This document shows positions 3,662-15,990 of a stretch of 16,026 nt of DNA, one piece after another. The stretch is from contig CAKQKT010000039.1 of NCBI GenBank assembly GCA_934249275.1, positions 1-16,026 of the forward strand, read 5' to 3'. The stretch is from an uncultured Sutterella sp. (GTDB lineage: Bacteria > Pseudomonadota > Gammaproteobacteria > Burkholderiales > Burkholderiaceae_F). The notes under the pieces were generated by a model that was given only the letters and a program-made list of their open reading frames with translations, made no database searches and was not told the origin of the DNA. Each line of letters begins with the position of its first letter. Position 1 is the stretch's first letter. Made by a program: the position numbers and the translations under genes.

Positions 3662-4630
3662 TCAGATGACCAGCTGCCTCGTCGCTTCCTCGACCTGCTC
3701 GTCCTCGCGCTTGTCGTAGCGCTGGGTGGTCAGCACCGACGCGTGTCCCATGGCCTTGCGCACGAGGTTGATGTCCGTGCCTGCGCCCAGCAGCCGGGTC
3801 GCAAAGGTTCTTCTCAGATCGTGAGGCGAAAAGTCCTCGACGCCCGACTCGTGCGAGCGCTGCTTCAGAATGTAGTAGACGGCCGAGGAGGAGATGGAGT
3901 GGTTTCTCCAAATCTTCCCGTAGCGTCGAAGCGCAACAAAGACATTGGGCGAGGGATCGTCGCCGCGAACTTCGAGCCATGCCTGAAGCCTCTCCCAGAC
4001 GGCCTTGCCGAGCGCCACGCGGCGCTCCTTGTTGCCTTTGCCTCGAACCGTGATGGCGCGGCGCGTGAAGTCAACCTGCTCCATCAGAAGGCCGGCAAGC
4101 TCGGAACGGCGAAGACCGCAGCCGATGGCAAGCGCAATGATCGCGGCATCGCGCTTTGAGCGCAGGCTCCCGTCCTCTTCAGTGGCCTTGAGAAGCTTGC
4201 CGGACTCCGAAGGCTTGAGGGCGCGGCCTTTGCTGATGCGCTCGCCGCGAACCGACTTCACTTCCTTGATCGCCATGTAGGTCTGAAGCGGCATCAGCAT
4301 CTTGAGCCAGGCCTGCTTCGCGGTCATCTTGATCGCTGAGAGCTGAAGGTTGATGGTGGCGGGCGAGAGGCCTTCACGGAGCTTCGTTTCGCGAAAGGCA
4401 AGCACGTGGTCGTAGGTGAGCTGGTGCCATTCCATCGAATGAAGGTCGGACGCTCCGAAAAAGCGGGCGATTTGATTGAGAAGCTGAACGATGCGCTTCT
4501 TGGACTGGCCGTCGCCGAGCGTCATGACGTACGCTTCGGCGGGATTGAGATAGTTGCGGGTGCCCGCCGCAACGACGGCAGGAACGGTGGAATCGCAAAC
4601 GCAATAGGACGAATAGTAGGAGGCCTGCAT
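3662..4630 (-). CDS. Tyrosine recombinase / phage-type integrase
   Basis: A 322-residue site-specific recombinase from the ATG at 4628-4630. The frame also extends nine codons to a TTG at 4657; neither start has a good ribosome binding site. The N-terminal SAM-like core-binding domain (about 35-125, e.g. GLSPATINLQLSAIK) is followed by the catalytic domain (about 140-315). The full active set is present: Arg in GLRRSEL (R174), Lys in RGKGNKER (K198), His and Arg in HDLRRTF (H270, R273), His in GHAS (H296) and the nucleophile Tyr in TTQRYDK (Y305). Length and layout match XerC/D-like and integron- or phage-type integrases. It would cut and rejoin DNA at a short target through a phosphotyrosine link. 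It stands alone: no excisionase, tRNA or recognisable attachment site is nearby, so it may be an orphan of an old insertion or a Xer-like enzyme. A possible -10 (TATAGT on the minus strand, 4728-4733) lies upstream. Confidence 0.88.
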   Translation of the reverse strand: MQASYYSSYCVCDSTVPAVVAAGTRNYLNPAEAYVMTLGDGQSKKRIVQLLNQIARFFGASDLHSMEWHQLTYDHVLAFRETKLREGLSPATINLQLSAIKMTAKQAWLKMLMPLQTYMAIKEVKSVRGERISKGRALKPSESGKLLKATEEDGSLRSKRDAAIIALAIGCGLRRSELAGLLMEQVDFTRRAITVRGKGNKERRVALGKAVWERLQAWLEVRGDDPSPNVFVALRRYGKIWRNHSISSSAVYYILKQRSHESGVEDFSPHDLRRTFATRLLGAGTDINLVRKAMGHASVLTTQRYDKREDEQVEEATRQLVI

Positions 4631-5010
4631 GATGAGCAAACGAATGAACAAAACCAAAACGATGGGCGAACCCTATGTGTTGAGTGCGCAAGCGGCCTTG
4701 CAAACAGGCTTTTCACGCATTACGGCGACTATAAACGATTTCTTAAAAACACTCACGCCTCAACATTTCCGACATCCGACCGGTTGCACCGTTCCAAGCT
4801 GCTGCCCTTTGAAATTGGCCTGAGGAGGGAAATCTGTCTCTTGAAGCGTGGAAATTGAGGAGGCCATACAAGATGGAGGGAGGCGAAAGTGGGTAAAAAC
4901 CCTCGAGTGTCGGCCTGCCGACACTTTGCGAAGGCGCTCTCATGCAAACTGCGCATTGTTGACGGACATTCGCGACCAGGCGGATGCCGGAATAAACAGG
5001 AGACAAGAAA
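4631..5010. other. Divergent control region between the recombinase and the flavoprotein
   Basis: About 380 bases without a convincing gene. It contains GCAAG-CGGC-CTTGC (4688-4701), AT-rich sequence with TATAAA/TATAGT words on the two strands (4728-4735), two purine-rich stretches resembling ribosome binding sites (about 4821-4829 and 4858-4863) without a supported ORF after them, GGGT-AAAA-ACCC (4891-4902), and a perfect 8-bp inverted repeat at 4906-4925. The flavoprotein's ribosome binding site AGGAGA is at 4998-5003. A TTGACG (4959-4964) could be a -35 box, but no good -10 pairs with it. Confidence 0.5.
4906..4925. promoter_or_regulatory. 20-bp inverted repeat upstream of the flavoprotein
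   Basis: AGTGTCGG, CCTG, CCGACACT: perfect 8-bp arms with a 4-base centre, 85 bases before the flavoprotein ATG. It could be an operator for a dimeric regulator or an early hairpin in the leader; TTTGCG follows, too short a T-run for a strong terminator. Confidence 0.4.
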
Positions 5011-6510
5011 ATGCAAAAATTTCTGCGCACAATGGCGGCTGCCGCCGTCGCCGCGGCCATGGCGCCCGCCTTTGCCGCTGATGCAACCTACAACGTCGAC
5101 GTTGTCGTGATCGGCGCCGGCGCTGCCGGCACCGCTGCCGGCTGGGCCGCCGCTGAAAAGGGCCTCAAGGTCGTTACGCTCGAAAAGCAGGCCATGGTCG
5201 GCGGCACGGGCAAGTTCTCCGAAGGCATCTTCGCCGTCGAGAGCTCCATGCAGCGCAACTGGAACTATGCCCTCACCAAGGACGAAGCCTTCCAGAAGAT
5301 CATGAACTACGGCCACTGGCGCGGCAATGCCAAGATGGTTCGCGCCTTCGTGGACAAGTCCGGCGAAACGATCGACTGGATGCAGGCCAACGGCGTCAAG
5401 TTCGAAAAGCTCTTCTCCAACTATCCGAACGGCCTCTACACGTGGCACATTTATGAAGGCCGCGGCGCCGGCTGGATCAATCTCTTCCAGCAGAAGTACA
5501 AGGATGCCGGCCAGACGCTCCTCCTCAATACGTGGGGCAAGGAACTCATTCAGGACAAGAGCGGCACGGTGAAGGGCGTCGTTGCAACGAACAAGGCCGG
5601 CGACAAGATCACCGTCAATGCCAAGGCGACCATCATCGCCACGGGCGGCTTCTTCGACAACAAGGAAATGCGTGAGAAGTATCTGCGCTTCCCGGATGCC
5701 GACGGCCTCGCTCAGAAGGGCAAGACCGGTGACGGCATTCAGATGGCCTGGGCTGCAGGCGGCGGCAAGGAAGGCTGCGAAGTGCAGGCGTCCTATCGTC
5801 CGGGTCCCCGCGGCATCGGCACGACGAACCATGTTTCCGCCACGGCCAAGCAGCCGCATCTTTGGCTGACCCCGAAGGGCGAACGCTTCTGCGACGAAAA
5901 GATCATGCTCGAATGGCCGTTCGCAGGCAATGCGCTTGAACGCATCGGCGGCACGATGTACGTCGTGTACGACCAGAACACCCTCAACCACATGGAAAAG
6001 GACAAGGGCATCGACCTTGGCGTCGGCGTGATGGTTCCGGTCGGCACGAAGCTCACGAACTTCGAAAAGGAATGGGATGCTGCCGTCAAGGGCGGCTGGG
6101 CCTTCAAGGCCGACACGCTCGAAGGCCTTGCCAAGGCCACCGGCATGGATCCTGCCAAGCTCGCCAAGACGGTCGAGGCCTACAACGGCTTCTGCGCCGT
6201 TCGTCATGACGCAGAATTCGCCAAGGATCCGGCCTATCTGCGCGAAGTGAAGACCGGTCCGTTCTACGCCATCAAGTCCGTTGCGTCCTCGCTCGGCACG
6301 CTCGGCGGCATCAAGGCCAACGAACACTTTGAAGTTGTCACGCAGGACGAAACGCCGATTCGCGGTCTCTACGCTGCAGGCAATGACGTCGGCGGCATGT
6401 ACGGCGACTCGTACGACCTCCTGATGGCCGGCTCCACGGTCGGCTTCGCGGTCAACTCGGCCCGCATTGCGGTTGAGTCTGCCGAAAAGTACATCAAGAC
6501 TGCCAAGTAA
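5011..6510 (+). CDS. Exported FAD-dependent oxidoreductase (fumarate-reductase-like flavoprotein, substrate unknown)
   Basis: A 499-residue protein of the FAD_binding_2 family (flavoprotein subunits of fumarate reductase/succinate dehydrogenase and relatives). A signal peptide (MQKFLRTMAAAAVAAAMAPAFA, residues 1-22, in two parts MQKFLRTMAAA and AVAAAMAPAFA) sends it to the periplasm. The dinucleotide fold begins at VVVIGAGAAG (31-40), with the ribose-binding Glu at LEK (E58). GGTGKFSEG (64-72), ATGGF (210-214) and the C-terminal FAD motif GLYAAGND (452-459) are present. There is no CxxCH heme site and no FMN-binding domain, unlike the single-chain Shewanella enzymes, so electrons must come from a separate partner, probably a c-type cytochrome, not seen here. 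Residues acting on fumarate in the Shewanella enzyme seem replaced (see findings), so fumarate is unlikely as substrate. AGGAGA seven bases before the ATG supports the start. Confidence 0.88.
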   Translation: MQKFLRTMAAAAVAAAMAPAFAADATYNVDVVVIGAGAAGTAAGWAAAEKGLKVVTLEKQAMVGGTGKFSEGIFAVESSMQRNWNYALTKDEAFQKIMNYGHWRGNAKMVRAFVDKSGETIDWMQANGVKFEKLFSNYPNGLYTWHIYEGRGAGWINLFQQKYKDAGQTLLLNTWGKELIQDKSGTVKGVVATNKAGDKITVNAKATIIATGGFFDNKEMREKYLRFPDADGLAQKGKTGDGIQMAWAAGGGKEGCEVQASYRPGPRGIGTTNHVSATAKQPHLWLTPKGERFCDEKIMLEWPFAGNALERIGGTMYVVYDQNTLNHMEKDKGIDLGVGVMVPVGTKLTNFEKEWDAAVKGGWAFKADTLEGLAKATGMDPAKLAKTVEAYNGFCAVRHDAEFAKDPAYLREVKTGPFYAIKSVASSLGTLGGIKANEHFEVVTQDETPIRGLYAAGNDVGGMYGDSYDLLMAGSTVGFAVNSARIAVESAEKYIKTAK

Positions 6511-6540
6511 AAATAATAAAAAACTTGCGCTGCTCCTCGT

Positions 6541-6587
6541 AATGACGGGGTGTCGGTCAGAAAACCGGCGCCCCGTCATTCTTTATC
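6541..6587. terminator. Long-stem bidirectional terminator between flavoprotein and regulator
   Basis: Bases 6541-6557 and 6564-6580 pair over 17 positions (starting AATGACGGGG, ending CCCCGTCATT; two pairs are G-U) around a 6-base loop, followed by CTTTAT. On the opposite strand the A-rich stretch before the stem (6509-6523) supplies T bases a little further downstream. It can end both converging transcripts. Confidence 0.8.
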
Positions 6588-6620
6588 GTGAGCAGACAAA
6601 AGGCAGAAGAAGCCAGCTCG

Positions 6621-7343
6621 CTAGCCCAAGCGCCAGTCCGGCTTGCAGCCCGAGCGGTGTTCGAGCCAGTCGTAGACGTCGTCAAAGAGTGTCGGCAGAA
6701 TTTCGAGATGACGGCCCGTGCGGCGGGCAAGGCCGTTGCGGCGCCAGTCGCCGATGACCTGCGCAACCGTCTGGCGGGTGAGATTCACCGTCTGTCCGAT
6801 GACTTCGGCGGAAATCGTGTACGGAACCCGCAGCCAGTCCGTCCCGAGGACGGGATTCTCATGAAGGAGAACGGCCTTGAGGAGAATCTTGATGCGCTGC
6901 TCCGGCGGCAGCGTGAAGTTGGCGATCATGCCTTCGATGATCGTTTCTTCCTTCTCAATGGCATGCTGATATTTAAGGACGGCGAGTTCCGGATCCGTGA
7001 AGACGTGCTTGGAGAAGAAGTCGGGTGCCGTGCACCAGACCTTCGAGGGCAGGATTGCCCGGGTTTCGACGTTGCAGCGGCGGCCGACGCTCGAGGTCAT
7101 GTCGCACATCGTAGTGCCGGGAAGGAGTAGCGACATGATGGAGGCATGGCCCGTCGTGTCGCCTGCGACGAAGTAGGCGCACAAGCCTTCTTCAAGAAGA
7201 AAGAGACGGTTGGCATCGCCGCCGCGCTTCAATACTTCGCCGGCCGCTACATCCCGAAGCGTGCCGTGGGCACGAATGAGTTCCGCGATGCGCTCGGGCT
7301 CGCGCGGACAGACGTATGGCGTGGCGAAGAAGATTTGTCTCAT
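6621..7343 (-). CDS. Crp/Fnr-family transcriptional regulator
   Basis: A 240-residue protein with an N-terminal cyclic-nucleotide-binding-type beta-barrel (about 25-115; GEVLKRGGDANRLFLLEEG at 35-53), a long dimer helix (about 118-140) and a C-terminal winged helix. The recognition region is ISAEVIGQTVNLTRQTVAQVIGDW (177-200, in parts ISAEVIGQTVNL and TRQTVAQVIGDW), followed by NGLARR and a wing. It lacks the N-terminal cysteine cluster of Fnr; its cysteines (12, 55, 80, 90, 104, 233) are scattered. The Crp residues that hold cAMP are not evident, so the signal is unknown. The ATG at 7341-7343 has GGAG 11 bases upstream. It converges on the flavoprotein gene rather than sharing a promoter with it, so control of that gene is possible but not shown. 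Related regulators in anaerobes govern respiratory or nitrosative-stress genes. Confidence 0.85.
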   Translation of the reverse strand: MRQIFFATPYVCPREPERIAELIRAHGTLRDVAAGEVLKRGGDANRLFLLEEGLCAYFVAGDTTGHASIMSLLLPGTTMCDMTSSVGRRCNVETRAILPSKVWCTAPDFFSKHVFTDPELAVLKYQHAIEKEETIIEGMIANFTLPPEQRIKILLKAVLLHENPVLGTDWLRVPYTISAEVIGQTVNLTRQTVAQVIGDWRRNGLARRTGRHLEILPTLFDDVYDWLEHRSGCKPDWRLG

Positions 7344-7491
7344 GGATGTTCCGGCTCCGGTGGAAGGTTGTACTGCCGACTTATGAATAAATTCTACAGA
7401 ACGAAGTGGTGAGCCATGAAGATGGTTTTCCTGAACTGCAGGCGGGATTCGGGATGGTCGAGCCGGTGCAGGGCAGAGCCTGTCGGGAAAT

Positions 7492-8872: not shown

Positions 8873-9160
8873 ATGGCCCACTCGACCCAAATCAGCTTTC
8901 GCAACACCATGCCGCTCAACGAGCCCGGGAATGCGGCCGGTTGGATCAAAAGCGTGCGCAAGGCACGCGGAATGACGCAGTCGGAGCTCGCGGCAAAGGC
9001 GAACGTCACGCAACGCCTTGTGTCCGAATTCGAGTCCGGGAAGGTCATGGTGCGCGTTGACACGCTCTTCAGATTGGTTCAGGCGCTCGGCCTGCGGCTT
9101 GCCGTGATTGATCCGAGCATTGAAATCCCGGACGACGAGAAGGAGGAATTCGAGTGGTAG
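8873..9160 (+). CDS. hipB: HipB-type antitoxin, XRE-family DNA-binding protein
   Basis: A 95-residue protein with a Cro/C1-type helix-turn-helix (about 24-77); the core is RGMTQSELAAKANVTQRLVSEFESG (32-56, in parts RGMTQSELAAKAN and VTQRLVSEFESG). It should neutralise the HipA kinase encoded next and repress the operon as a dimer. The C-terminal tail is acidic (IPDDEKEEFEW) and ends in Glu-Trp, as I recall for the disordered tail of E. coli HipB, where the last Trp contacts HipA and the tail is needed for Lon turnover. The first 20 residues are longer than in the E. coli protein. GAGG five bases before the ATG supports the start. The stop overlaps the hipA start by 7 bases, showing translational coupling. 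Confidence 0.9.
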   Translation: MAHSTQISFRNTMPLNEPGNAAGWIKSVRKARGMTQSELAAKANVTQRLVSEFESGKVMVRVDTLFRLVQALGLRLAVIDPSIEIPDDEKEEFEW

Positions 9161-10470
9161 AGAGCACATTGCGTGTGGACTGGAACGGCGTGGAAGTCGG
9201 GACTTTGATCATGGGTGCCGGCCGGGTCCTTCGATTTCGATATTCGCCGGAATGGCTGAGCCATCCCAACCGCAGGTCGATCTCGCTCAGCCTTCCGCTT
9301 GGTCGAAAGGAATATGAAGGGCCGGCAGTATGGAGCTTCTTTTCCAATCTGCTTCCCGACAATGCGCAGGCGCTGGAAAGGATCAGCGAGATCTTTCGCT
9401 TGCCGCCCGGCGGAACCTTCGCATTTCTTGAAGCCATGGGCCGGGACTGCATCGGTGCGGCCCGGTTCCATGCCGAAGGCTCGACGCCTCCCGAGCCGTG
9501 CGGCATGAAGAGCCGCAAGCTTTCCGAGGAGGGCATTGAGGAGATGCTGCTCAGCCTCGGCGGCTTCCCGCTTGGGATGAGTCCTGAGGAGGATTTCCGG
9601 CTCACGATTCCCGGCGCGCAAATGAAGACCGCGCTCCTGAGGCTCAACGGCGAATGGCGTCTTCCGCTGGAGGGTGCTCCTACGACGCATATTCTCAAGC
9701 TGCCCATCGGTTCCATGCACGGCAATACGATCGACTTTTCCGGGAGCTGCGAAAACGAGTGGCTCTGTTTGGAAATTGCGCGTGCCTTTGGCCTGCCCGC
9801 AGCCCGCGCGGACCTTGCGGCCTTCGGTTCGGTGCGGGCCATTGCCGTGGAGCGCTTCGACCGAATTCCTTCAAAGAGTCATCCGGGCGTCATTCTGAGG
9901 CTGCCCGCCGAAGACATGTGCCAGGCGCTCGGCGTACCGCCGCATCAAAAGTATGAGACCGACGGCGGTCCGGGCATCGGCCGGATCATGAAGCTTCTCG
10001 AGCAGTCTGCGGAAAGAGAGCGCGACAGGCATGTCTTCATGGCGGCGCAGGTTCTGATGTGGCTGCTGGATTCGCCCGATGCGCATGCAAAGAACTATTC
10101 GATTCTGCTTCGCCGAGGCGATTGCTTCGAGCTCGCGCCGCTCTATGACATCCTGTCTGCCGCACCGCTGACGGCTTCGGGTGAACTCTCCGAAAGAAGG
10201 CTCAAGCTCGCGATGGCTCTGATCGGCAAGAATCGGCACGATCGGATGACGGATGTGCAGCCGCGGCATTTCATCTCGACGGCGAAGGCGGTCGGCTTTC
10301 CCGAGACGGAGATGCGTGAAATACTTCACAACTTTGCCGACAAAACGCCCAAGGTCATCGAGGATCTCAGGAAGAGGCTCCCGGCGGACTTTCCAGAGAC
10401 GACATCTCGGCCAATTTTCGAGATCATTCGAAAAAGAGCAGGGATGCTCGCGCGCTTCCTTGAATCCTGA
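9154..10470 (+). CDS. hipA: HipA-type serine/threonine kinase toxin
   Basis: A 438-residue protein starting at GTG; AGGAGG seven bases upstream (9141-9146) and the overlap with hipB fix this start. The N-terminal subdomain 1 (about 1-110, with FFSNLLPDN) and the HipA_C kinase domain (about 145-405) are complete. Signatures include GAQMKTALL (154-162), THILKLPIG (178-186), ENEWLCLEIARAFGLP (200-215), VERFDR (232-237), LPAEDMCQALG (250-260), DGGPGI (270-275), the catalytic loop DAHAKN (309-314) and the metal-binding LYDILS (330-335). Asp309, Asn314 and Asp332 fall at the same numbers as in E. coli HipA, which phosphorylates glutamyl-tRNA synthetase and arrests growth. The residue before the P-loop, Ser150 in E. 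coli and autophosphorylated, is Thr151 here. This protein is likely an active toxin held by HipB. Confidence 0.92.
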   Translation: MVESTLRVDWNGVEVGTLIMGAGRVLRFRYSPEWLSHPNRRSISLSLPLGRKEYEGPAVWSFFSNLLPDNAQALERISEIFRLPPGGTFAFLEAMGRDCIGAARFHAEGSTPPEPCGMKSRKLSEEGIEEMLLSLGGFPLGMSPEEDFRLTIPGAQMKTALLRLNGEWRLPLEGAPTTHILKLPIGSMHGNTIDFSGSCENEWLCLEIARAFGLPAARADLAAFGSVRAIAVERFDRIPSKSHPGVILRLPAEDMCQALGVPPHQKYETDGGPGIGRIMKLLEQSAERERDRHVFMAAQVLMWLLDSPDAHAKNYSILLRRGDCFELAPLYDILSAAPLTASGELSERRLKLAMALIGKNRHDRMTDVQPRHFISTAKAVGFPETEMREILHNFADKTPKVIEDLRKRLPADFPETTSRPIFEIIRKRAGMLARFLES

Positions 10471-12556: not shown

Positions 12557-12616
12557 CACTTCCGAAAGGAAGTGAGCTCAAGCCAAGAGAGGCGGTCCGA
12601 AAGGGCCGCCTCTCTT
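12557..12616 (+). terminator. Tandem hairpins ending the dipeptidase transcript
   Basis: Two stems, each with a GAAA tetraloop: CACTTCC-GAAA-GGAAGTG (12557-12574), 7 bp perfect, and a 14-bp stem starting AAGAGAGGCGG (12585-12598) pairing with 12603-12616, with one G-U pair. The T-run after the second is short (TTGC), so part of the effect may be RNA stability rather than termination. Confidence 0.65.
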
Positions 12617-12862
12617 GCATTGGTCTTTGCTCAGGGCGAGAGAAAATTCTTAGTCGAAATAGGGGTAAGAACTCACATGTTGCTTCAAGGTTCGCGTCCT
12701 ATACTGAAAAAAGCGTTCGGATTTGACGGAACGCACCATGTGCGGAAGGCTTCCGCCGGTTGAGAAATACGCCTGCACGCCCCCCGCAGTTTTCTTTCTC
12801 GCCTCGGAAATGACAAAGCGTCAAGGCCTTCCTGATGCATGACTCTTTTGGAGACAGGAAGC
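12617..12862 (+). promoter_or_regulatory. Leader and control region of dmsAB
   Basis: About 250 bases before dmsA with no supported gene. A possible -10 box TATACT sits at 12700-12705 without a good -35. Downstream are two symmetrical stretches: GCGTTC (12713-12718) with GAACGC (12729-12734), and GCGGAAG-G-CTTCCGC (12742-12756). No Fnr-type TTGAT-N4-ATCAA site was found. The ribosome binding site is GGAG at 12850-12853. Confidence 0.35.
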
Positions 12863-15307
12863 ATGCTTTCACGACGTAATTTCCTCACTCACACGGCCAT
12901 GCTCGGCTCTGCCGCCGGGTTTACGGCAACTCCCTTGAGCAGTGCGGTTGCTGCCGCGGTCGACGATCTTGAGACGACGACCTGGTCCTGCTGCTCGATC
13001 AACTGCGGCTCGCGCTGCCTCTTGAGGTGCGTATCCAAGAAAGGCCGCGTCATTCGCATTGAAACTGACAATACGGGCGATCCGTAAGCCGGAGCTTCGG
13101 CCACATCGTGCCCGCAGGTTCGCGCCTGCCAGCGCGGTCGCGCGATCCGCCAGCGCCTCTATTCCGAAGAACGCCTGAAATTCCCGATGAAGCGCGTCGG
13201 CAAGCGCGGGGAAGGGCGCTTCGAGCGCATTTCCTGGGATCAGGCTCTTGACGAAATCGCTGCCCGCCTGAAGAAGACCATCGCCGAGCACACGAACGAG
13301 TCCGTCATGCTGATGCACGGCTCGGGCAATTATTCGCTCTTCAACAACCGCAACTGCACGTTCCGCTTCTTCAATATGATCGGCGGCAACATCGGCTGGT
13401 ATTCCGACTATTCCGCTGCCTGCATTCAGCATGCATGGCCTTATCTTTACGGCGGATTCGGCTACGGCGGCGTACGCTCGACGAACAACGGCGCCGGCTC
13501 CTACATGAACCAGGTGAAGAATGCCAAGCTTTACGTCACTTTCGGCAACAATCCGGCCGTGACTCGTGCGTCCGGCGGCGGCCAGTCCTGGGAGCTCTAT
13601 GGTGCGCTTCGCGAAGGCAAGACGCGCATGGTCGTGATCGATCCGATCTGCTCGGATACGCTTGCAGGCCGTGATGCCGAATGGATTGCCATTCGTCCGG
13701 GCACCGACGCGGCGCTCTGTGAAGGCATGGCCTGGGTCATGATCAATGAGAATCTCGTCGATCAGGCCTTCCTCGACAAGTATTGCGTCGGCTACGACGA
13801 AAAGACGCTGCCGGCATCCGCGCCGAAAGGCTCGGACTACAAGTCCTACATTCTCGGCAAGGGTCCGGACAAGACCGCGAAGACCCCGCAGTGGGCCTCC
13901 CGCATCACGCAGGTTCCGGTTGAAACGATCGAAAGCCTGGCTCGTGAAATCGCCACCACCAAGCCCGTCTTCATCTCTCAGGGCTGGGGCCCGCAGCGCC
14001 GCATGAACGGCGAAACCCAGTCGACGGCCATCGCGATGATGGCGCTTCTGACCGGCCAGGTGGGCCTCCCGGGCACCAACTCCGGTGCGCGTGAAGGCGA
14101 CTCCTACGGCATCGATACGGGCCTGCCCGTCGGCAAGAATCCGATCGGCAAGTCGTTCCCGATCTTCCTCTGGCCGCGCGCCGTGAAGGATGCCAAGGGC
14201 ATGACGGCGCTCAACGCGGGCGTTCGCGGCTGCGACAGGCTCGAGCACAACGTCAAGTTCATCTGGAACACGCAGGGCAACACGCTCGTCAATCAGCACG
14301 GCGGCGTGAATCAAATTCGAGAAATGCTCGAGGACGAGTCTCTCGTCGAGACGATCGTCGTTGTCGACAATCAGATGACGCCGTCCGCCCGCTTCGCCGA
14401 CTATGTCCTGCCCGACACGATGAACCAGGAAATCGACGACATGCAGGGCGATGCCTACGCCGTCGGCGACTACAACTACATCGTTGCCTGCCCGAAGGCT
14501 GCGGACATTCTTTGGGAGCAGAAGCCCAACTACTGGATCATGAGCCAGATGGCCAAGCGCTTCGGCCTCGAGGACAAGTTCACCGAAGGCCGCACTCAGA
14601 AGGAATGGATTCGCTGGGGCTACGAACAGACGCTCGCCAAGGCCGCGAAGCAGCCCGATCCGATCAAGCTTCCGTCCTTTGACGAATTCTGGTCGAAGGG
14701 CTTCGTCAAGTATCACATGGGCCATGATTCCGGCATCGTCCTCAAGGCTTTCCGCGACGATCCGGTGAAGAATCCGCTCAAGACGCCTTCGGGCAAGATC
14801 GAAATCTATTCGGAGCGCCTCGCAAAGATTGCTTCGACCTGGGAGCTCCCGAAGACCAAGGGTCAGGAAATCCATCCGATCCCGCAGTTCATCGCAACGG
14901 CCGAAATGCTCGGCCAGGGCGATCCGCTCGAAAAGAAGTATCCGCTTGAGATCTACGGCTACCATGGCGCGGGCCGCACGCATTCGACCTATCACAACGT
15001 GCCGTGGCTCCGTGCTCTCCATCCCGACGAGCTCATGATCAATCCGATCGACGCAGAGCCCCGCGGCATTAAGACGGGCGACAAGGTCAAGGTCTTCAAC
15101 GACCGCGGCTCTCTTGTCATTCCCGCCTTTGTCACGAACCGCGTGATTCCGCATCTGGTGGCGATGCCTCAGGGTGCCTGGTACAAGCCTGACGAGAAGG
15201 GCGTCGACCGGGGAGCCTGCTTCAACGTTCTGACGACGCTTGAATCGACCCCGCTTGCCAAGGGCAATCCTTCTCACACGAACCTCGTGCAGGTTGAAAA
15301 GCTTTGA
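12863..15307 (+). pseudogene. dmsA: DMSO-reductase-type molybdopterin catalytic subunit, interrupted by an in-frame TAA
   Basis: Full-length frame of 814 codons, the size of E. coli DmsA, with one stop (TAA, 13085-13087) at codon 75. The first part (12863-13087) has a twin-arginine signal, SRRNFLTHTAML, and three cysteines of the [4Fe-4S] site, CSINCGSRC (44-52). After the stop the same frame resumes with VRACQRGRAIRQR (fourth Cys, residue 89) and SEERLKFPMKRVGKRGEGRFERISW, then the molybdopterin domains, including the DYS motif that I take to hold the molybdenum-ligand serine (SDYSAAC, near 13409). The dinucleotide-binding C-terminus (GYHGAGRTHSTYHN, INPIDAEPRGIKTGDKVKVFNDRG) is intact. An internal ATG at 13187 (MKRVGKRG) opens 706 codons, but it has no family precedent as a start and would drop export signal and cluster. 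The family reduces S- or N-oxides in the periplasm; substrate unknown. It may be a recent null allele or a base error. Confidence 0.8.
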
Positions 15308-15321
15308 ATCGGAGTCACACT

Positions 15322-15912
15322 ATGAAGCAATACGGATTCTATTTCGATGCAACGCGCTGCACGGGCTGCAAGACCTGCGTGATCGCGTGCTGCGACAAGA
15401 ACGGACTTGAGGACGGCCGTCAGTTCCGTCATGTCCTTCCCTTTGAAAACGGCGGCTGGCGTCAGGACCGCATGACGGGCGCCTGGCATCAGGACGTGTC
15501 TCACGGCTACGTTTCGGTGTCCTGCAACCACTGCAGCGATCCCGCCTGCGTCAAGGTCTGCCCGACCAAGGCTCACGCCAAGCACGACGACAAGGGCGGA
15601 CTCGTCCTGATCGATCAGTCGAAGTGCATCGGCTGCGGCATGTGCGCAAAGGCCTGCCCGTATGGCGCGCCGGTTCTTGACGAGAAGGCGCACAAGATGA
15701 CGAAGTGCGATGCCTGCGTCGACCGCGTGGTCAAGGGCGAGCTTCCGGTGTGCGTCGCGGCATGTCCGCAGCGCGCGCTTGACTTCGGCTATGTCGATGA
15801 TCTCAAGGCCAAGTACGGCGAAGGCGCGCACATCGAGCCTCTGCCGTCTCCGGCCGTCACCAAGCCCAATCTCGTCGTCAGGCACGGCAAGGTCGGGAAG
15901 GAAGTCCGATAG
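15322..15912 (+). CDS. dmsB: DmsB-type four-cluster [4Fe-4S] electron-transfer subunit
   Basis: A 196-residue ferredoxin-like protein, slightly shorter than E. coli DmsB (about 205). All 16 cluster cysteines are present in four groups: CTGCKTCVIAC (13-23), CNHCSDPACVKVC (68-80), CIGCGMCAKAC (102-112), and CDAC (129-132) with CVAAC (144-148). It passes electrons to the molybdenum subunit. It has no signal peptide, as is normal: the family rides through the Tat system bound to DmsA. The ATG at 15322 has GGAG seven bases upstream; a TTG six codons earlier lies inside the end of dmsA and is less likely. It begins 14 bases after dmsA and would be cotranscribed. No membrane anchor (DmsC/NrfD) or maturation chaperone (DmsD/TorD) gene follows before the terminator. 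With dmsA broken, it may have no partner of its own. Confidence 0.9.
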   Translation: MKQYGFYFDATRCTGCKTCVIACCDKNGLEDGRQFRHVLPFENGGWRQDRMTGAWHQDVSHGYVSVSCNHCSDPACVKVCPTKAHAKHDDKGGLVLIDQSKCIGCGMCAKACPYGAPVLDEKAHKMTKCDACVDRVVKGELPVCVAACPQRALDFGYVDDLKAKYGEGAHIEPLPSPAVTKPNLVVRHGKVGKEVR

Positions 15913-15925
15913 ACAAGCGGTCAAG

Positions 15926-15990
15926 TGAGGCTTCGGCCTGACTGACAGGATAAGACCCGTTCGGCTTGCATTTGCCGGACGGGTTTTTTT
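15926..15990 (+). terminator. Terminator after dmsB
   Basis: ACCCGTTCGGC (15955-15965) pairs with GCCGGACGGGT (15974-15984), 11 bp with one T-G pair and an 8-base loop, followed by seven T, a textbook intrinsic terminator. A small UUCG hairpin, AGGC-TTCG-GCCT (about 15928-15939), precedes it. The last 36 bases of the window show nothing recognisable. Confidence 0.9.

Follow-up and report, generated by a model that had tools for sequence, protein, structure and literature searches.

The stretch of DNA analysed here (the window) comprises 16,026 nucleotides from an uncultured Sutterella sp., and near its end lies a frame for a DmsA-type catalytic subunit that is followed directly by dmsB (Table 1). 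Translation of the dmsA frame gives 814 codons and a terminal stop with a single internal stop, and agrees with the earlier note in making the TAA at codon 75 the sole interruption and in placing Cys44, Cys48 and Cys52 before it and Cys89 after it. Two models match the piece ahead of the stop: TIGR01409 for a Tat signal (24.7 bits against a cut-off of 16.7) and PF04879 for the beginning of the Molybdop_Fe4S4 domain (27.5 bits against 22.7). The DmsA/YnfE family model, TIGR02166, matches with 54 bits over residues 1-74 and with 934.2 bits past the stop, where the score exceeds the cut-off of 777.7 from this part alone, and the molybdopterin part past the stop is 95% identical in amino acids to that of S. 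wadsworthensis over 739 residues. The downstream codons were said to continue in the same frame and to be conserved, and they do so, with family matches on both sides of the stop and equal constraint on the two pieces (see below). The Tat signal and the four-cysteine iron-sulfur motif do not stand on a single chain in the window, being split by the stop, and the same site is uninterrupted in all five genomic orthologues that we aligned. For annotation, the two dmsA pieces are best recorded as a single interrupted gene instead of two separate ones.

Table 1. Features of the dmsAB locus in the window.
Feature	Position	Strand	Basis
Terminator-like hairpin, 15 pairs, between C69 peptidase gene and dmsA	12584..12617	+	Terminator scan
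Interrupted dmsA (DMSO/selenate-family reductase catalytic subunit)	12863..15307	+	Translation; TIGR02166 on both pieces; 95% amino-acid identity of downstream part to S. wadsworthensis
74-codon piece ahead of the stop, with Tat signal and Cys44/48/52 of first Fe-S cluster	12863..13084	+	TIGR01409, PF04879
In-frame TAA, codon 75	13085..13087	+	Sense codon in 5/5 aligned genomic orthologues
Codon of Cys89, fourth cysteine of the Fe-S motif, past the stop	13127..13129	+	Translation
Longest possible restart product, 706 aa, without Tat signal and Fe-S motif cysteines	13187..15307	+	First in-frame ATG/GTG/TTG after the stop
dmsB, iron-sulfur subunit, open	15322..15912	+	TIGR02951, 214.8 bits (cut-off 214.1)
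Terminator-like hairpin, 14 pairs, after dmsB	15952..15987	+	Terminator scan

The dmsB gene adjoins dmsA, as is typical of DmsABC systems, and its TIGR02951 score lies just past the cut-off. No dmsC was found in the 114 bases between dmsB and the end of the window, where one of the terminator-like sites is located, and the tested open reading frames behind dmsB in S. wadsworthensis 2_1_59BFAA (L001; 3 frames) and in a canine Sutterella metagenome-assembled genome (MAG) (L003; 2 frames) gave no DmsC match either. The terminator scan returned 4 sites in the region and shuffled sequences gave 3.4 (sd 1.9), so the number is no higher than chance would give; the two hairpins in Table 1 have the longest stems among them. 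Before the dmsA start, a TCCTATACT box was seen by eye to be common to the window and L001, within a three-way upstream alignment that is weak (mean column identity of 59%), and a simple scan found no sigma-70 site. Loss of the promoter through upstream rearrangement was considered as a cause of decay and found to be unsupported, the bases before the start still being like those of L001.

The neighbourhood of dmsAB differs in all three records (L001 4767-7825, L003 4776-7831, window 12863-15912). In L003 (2062-7828), dmsAB is immediately preceded, at a distance of ∼340 bases, by the flavocytochrome c and Crp-like genes, and in the window the corresponding segments (4998-7345 and 12850-15906) are separated by ∼5.5 kb that includes hipBA-like genes and a C69 peptidase gene. 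The hipBA-type pair (8873-10470) consists of an HTH_3 antitoxin-like gene and an overlapping HipA-like kinase gene (PF07804, PF13657), and a tyrosine recombinase gene (PF00589, 128 bits) occupies 3665-4657 on the minus strand. Upstream of dmsAB, L001 has an autotransporter gene; downstream of it, L003 has genes for DsbB and an arylsulfotransferase.

Over 3,060 bases, the window's dmsAB is 87.3% identical in DNA to that of L001; identity is 81.6% to L003 and 81.4% to a water-deer Sutterella MAG (L002), and a search of 12 genomes of the genus gave 87% as the best dmsA match. On these identities, the window probably belongs to a Sutterella species outside the panel. Within the family, 12 of 67 genomes had a dmsA match at an E value of 1e-250, and 17 of the 18 matching places were free of an internal stop, the sole exception being in G003, the genome of L003. 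Comparison with sister strains had been proposed as a check on codon 75, and when the codon was aligned with five genomic orthologues (L001, L002, L003, L032 and L033), none had a stop. All five have a sense codon there, specifying Glu in three, Gln in one and His in one, so that the tyrosine codon (TAC or TAT) suggested as ancestor of the TAA was rejected. An in-frame stop that is absent from orthologues, the mark of a nonsense pseudogene, is therefore what codon 75 presents, and on these aligned codons one substitution is sufficient to explain it. The small local insertion that had been suspected between TGD and QVRAC was rejected as well, since this linker is 11 codons long in the window and in all five orthologues (the motif reads QIRAC in L003). 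A further 57 protein relatives show a residue or an aligned gap at codon 75, which is no test of the stop, because interrupted copies would appear as fragments.

Selection on the two pieces was compared from codon counts (Nei-Gojobori, window versus L001). Before the stop, dS was 0.60 and dN 0.0244 (ratio 0.041), and after the stop, dS was 0.685 and dN 0.0317 (ratio 0.046); dmsB, which has no internal stop, gave a dN/dS of 0.066. With L003 as outgroup, 12 amino-acid changes past the stop were assigned to the window branch and 24 to the L001 branch, a count weakened by the errors of L003 itself and by saturated dS (1.5); L002 as outgroup agrees, with 14 and 17 changes. Neither relaxed selection nor further decay was thus found past the stop, the ratios being 0.046 versus 0.041 and the window branch showing no excess of changes, and the earlier observation that the rest of dmsA and dmsB are free of decay is borne out. 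Because constraint past the stop is comparable to that ahead of it, and excess changes are absent, the stop is either very young or an error. The neutral expectation over the whole window branch is ∼585 changes, and if all 14 changes were attributed to the time after the stop, they would represent 2.4% of the branch. By this sequence-based estimate, the stop would have arisen in roughly the last 2% of the window branch, or is not real. If real, it would provide a dated case, placed in roughly the final 2% of the branch leading from the S. wadsworthensis split, in which a single substitution deprived a gut commensal of one respiratory reductase.

We consider it probable, and the most likely reading, that a very recent single-substitution nonsense mutation made a null dmsA allele in this Sutterella species, an event that is most likely ordinary and requires no special mechanism. 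The unbroken constraint would also be expected if dmsA were really intact and the TAA had come from a wrong consensus or base call, or from a minority allele chosen during metagenome assembly, although genuine null alleles of recent origin look no different in this respect. Such errors seem to be present in the record of a relative: in L003, dmsA contains a TGA and flavocytochrome c a TAG, N bases are scattered over the 12.2 kb (32 in all), and these in-frame stops are likely to be uncorrected sequence errors. We set aside its dmsA TGA as a second natural null because of these N bases and the stop in the neighbouring gene. In contrast to L003, no second interruption or frameshift appeared in the window genes that were compared with relatives: the flavocytochrome c, Crp-like, C69 peptidase and MFS genes are all open and align over most or all of their length (the first two to L003, C69 to G003, and MFS to the best-matching genome, G001). 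These open neighbours favour a real substitution over poor assembly, though a single wrong base could also give the TAA. The same TAA was not found elsewhere, the window's own 74-residue fragment being absent among 7 matches of a short-protein search (best match 96% identity), which would fit an error; some other truncated DmsA alleles, however, recur across contigs (P0127 in 11, P0121 in 3 and P0067 in 4). An exact 20-base pattern across the stop gave 0 matches in viral contigs, which are a poor place to look. Taking these points together, we regard an error or a minority allele as unlikely, though by no means negligible.

Among the explanations offered in the earlier note, a recent nonsense mutation or strain-specific null and a base-call error remain, and stop readthrough and phase variation are left without support. 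If the stop were read through or suppressed, some full-length DmsA would be made, and the unrelaxed constraint past the stop, and nothing else, points in this direction. UAA is a tight stop. A programmed readthrough site would be expected to recur at the same place in relatives, whereas all five orthologues lack this stop, which speaks against conserved recoding here. The RNA immediately past the stop folds no better than shuffled sequences (z -0.16). Neither an Rfam match nor a tRNA was found within the window. Readthrough is accordingly very improbable in our estimate. A gene that switches on and off, or a split DmsA whose pieces cooperate, seems more improbable still; no observation speaks for it directly, although both pieces are well conserved. 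Within 12840-13400, a repeat scan showed nothing at the stop that could slip, neither a homopolymer nor a short tandem repeat; what it did find were two imperfect two-copy repeats (74% and 81%) and a single inverted pair of 11 bases separated by 388 nt. The change itself is one substitution. The downstream piece has a start without a visible ribosome site, and a split enzyme would have its iron-sulfur motif divided between two chains.

Interrupted DmsA proteins also occur in public protein clusters, beside an intact DmsA cluster (P0001) of 707 members. P0127 has 40 aa and ends just before Trp41; P0121 has a frameshift near residue 83 (longest contig 40,496), and P0129 has one near residue 384 (1 contig of 37,912). 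P0064, P0065 and P0067, from 6 contigs in all, end before Trp551 and represent one allele. Two further proteins depart from the frame as well: P0128 (469 aa; contig of 3,527 bases) and P0135 (246 aa; contig of 1,719 bases). We surveyed the ends of 127 DmsA-type fragments, drawn in part from the best 120 of 588; among the matches listed, 84 of the 127 have a foreign tail, and the other 43 match a full-length relative up to a clean end within it. The residue after a clean end was Trp in 8 of 43 and Gln in 9 of 43 among the matches listed, compared with 2.0% Trp and 3.9% Gln in the full-length set, where the next residue is approximate (many relatives are only ∼50% identical), many fragments may be contig ends, and 3 of the 8 Trp cases (P0064, P0065 and P0067) are the one allele. 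Ends preceding Trp or Gln show putative nonsense alleles across the whole DmsA family, not special to Sutterella, and an excess of such truncations as a Sutterella speciality was discarded, as the pattern belongs to the whole family. In five other clusters (P0003, P0019-P0021 and P0122), a Sutterella dmsA front was seen by eye to be joined to a paralogue rear; these proteins may be products of paralogue recombination or assembly chimeras, and some of the fragments may likewise be assembly products.

With the stop taken as a real nonsense mutation, ribosomes would stop at codon 75 and release a stub of 74 residues that includes the Tat signal and three of the iron-sulfur motif's four cysteines. 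The first possible restart lies past Cys89, so its product would lack both the signal and the cluster motif, and no Shine-Dalgarno-like sequence was seen by eye at this start (13187). In this family, the lack of both would be expected to abolish activity. An internal restart would then yield a leaderless protein without the cluster motif and no active DmsAB from this locus, and we infer a loss of DmsA activity here.

Such a loss could be tolerated because relatives have other DmsA-type enzymes. The best-matching genome, G001, encodes a full-length DmsA paralogue of 815 codons at 68% identity, in which the Cys motif is present. Its second paralogue (56%, L069) is an open frame of 700 codons that begins just before the MKRVG motif and contains no Tat signal or Fe-S motif, and a paralogue in G003 (55%, L064), which lies within an error-rich record, is open over 719 codons. 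Neither L069 nor L064 has a Tat signal or a full Fe-S motif in frame, each is followed by a dmsB-like frame, and this DmsA-type gene seems to have lost its front. As these two paralogues are short, not every paralogue can serve as a backup, and redundancy is thinner than the count of matches suggests. The intact paralogue in one relative, together with the other truncated alleles in public clusters, makes the loss look tolerated, and by analogy with the relatives, redundancy probably allows it in the window strain too. A broader proposal is that dmsA is recurrently lost in gut Sutterella, with several independent null alleles circulating beside intact copies and S-oxide respiration repeatedly switched off by selection in some hosts. 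It would draw together the codon-75 stop, the Trp41 and Trp551 truncations and the frameshifts near residues 83 and 384, and it adds the S. wadsworthensis paralogue that is seemingly without its front; we consider this proposal doubtful.

A single young nonsense mutation in an otherwise conserved dmsA, the reading we prefer, can be set beside known systems. Like members of TIGR02166 (DmsA/YnfE), the window gene has a Tat signal, the Cys motif, molybdopterin domains and dmsB directly behind it; it differs in the interruption at codon 75, and no dmsC was seen adjoining. A second comparison is with the gut organism designated 'B. bacterium 1_1_47', where we take 'B.' to be Burkholderiales. Excerpts from one paper (PMC4257093) describe DmsAB systems that have no membrane component in certain gut bacteria, namely this organism and two clostridia. 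The window's dmsAB is like the systems in those excerpts in that no dmsC was found adjoining, whereas they are predicted there to be cytoplasmic and the window has a Tat signal ahead of the stop. Among the papers listed in searches on Sutterella dmsA, DMSO reductase and molybdopterin oxidoreductase, on dmsA pseudogenes, and on the DmsA signal peptide and cluster, no listing names an interrupted Sutterella dmsA; excerpts from one paper (PMC6137255) report a missense change in dmsA and no interruption. Salmonella Gallinarum, according to the excerpted text of a review (PMC10812584), is without dmsA1 and dmsA2, and is a host-restricted pathogen with more than 200 pseudogenes (231 and 212 in two biovars). 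As in Gallinarum so described, a gene of DMSO respiration appears to have been lost within one lineage; unlike the many pseudogenes given for that pathogen, the codon-75 stop is the only interruption noticed in the 16-kb window.
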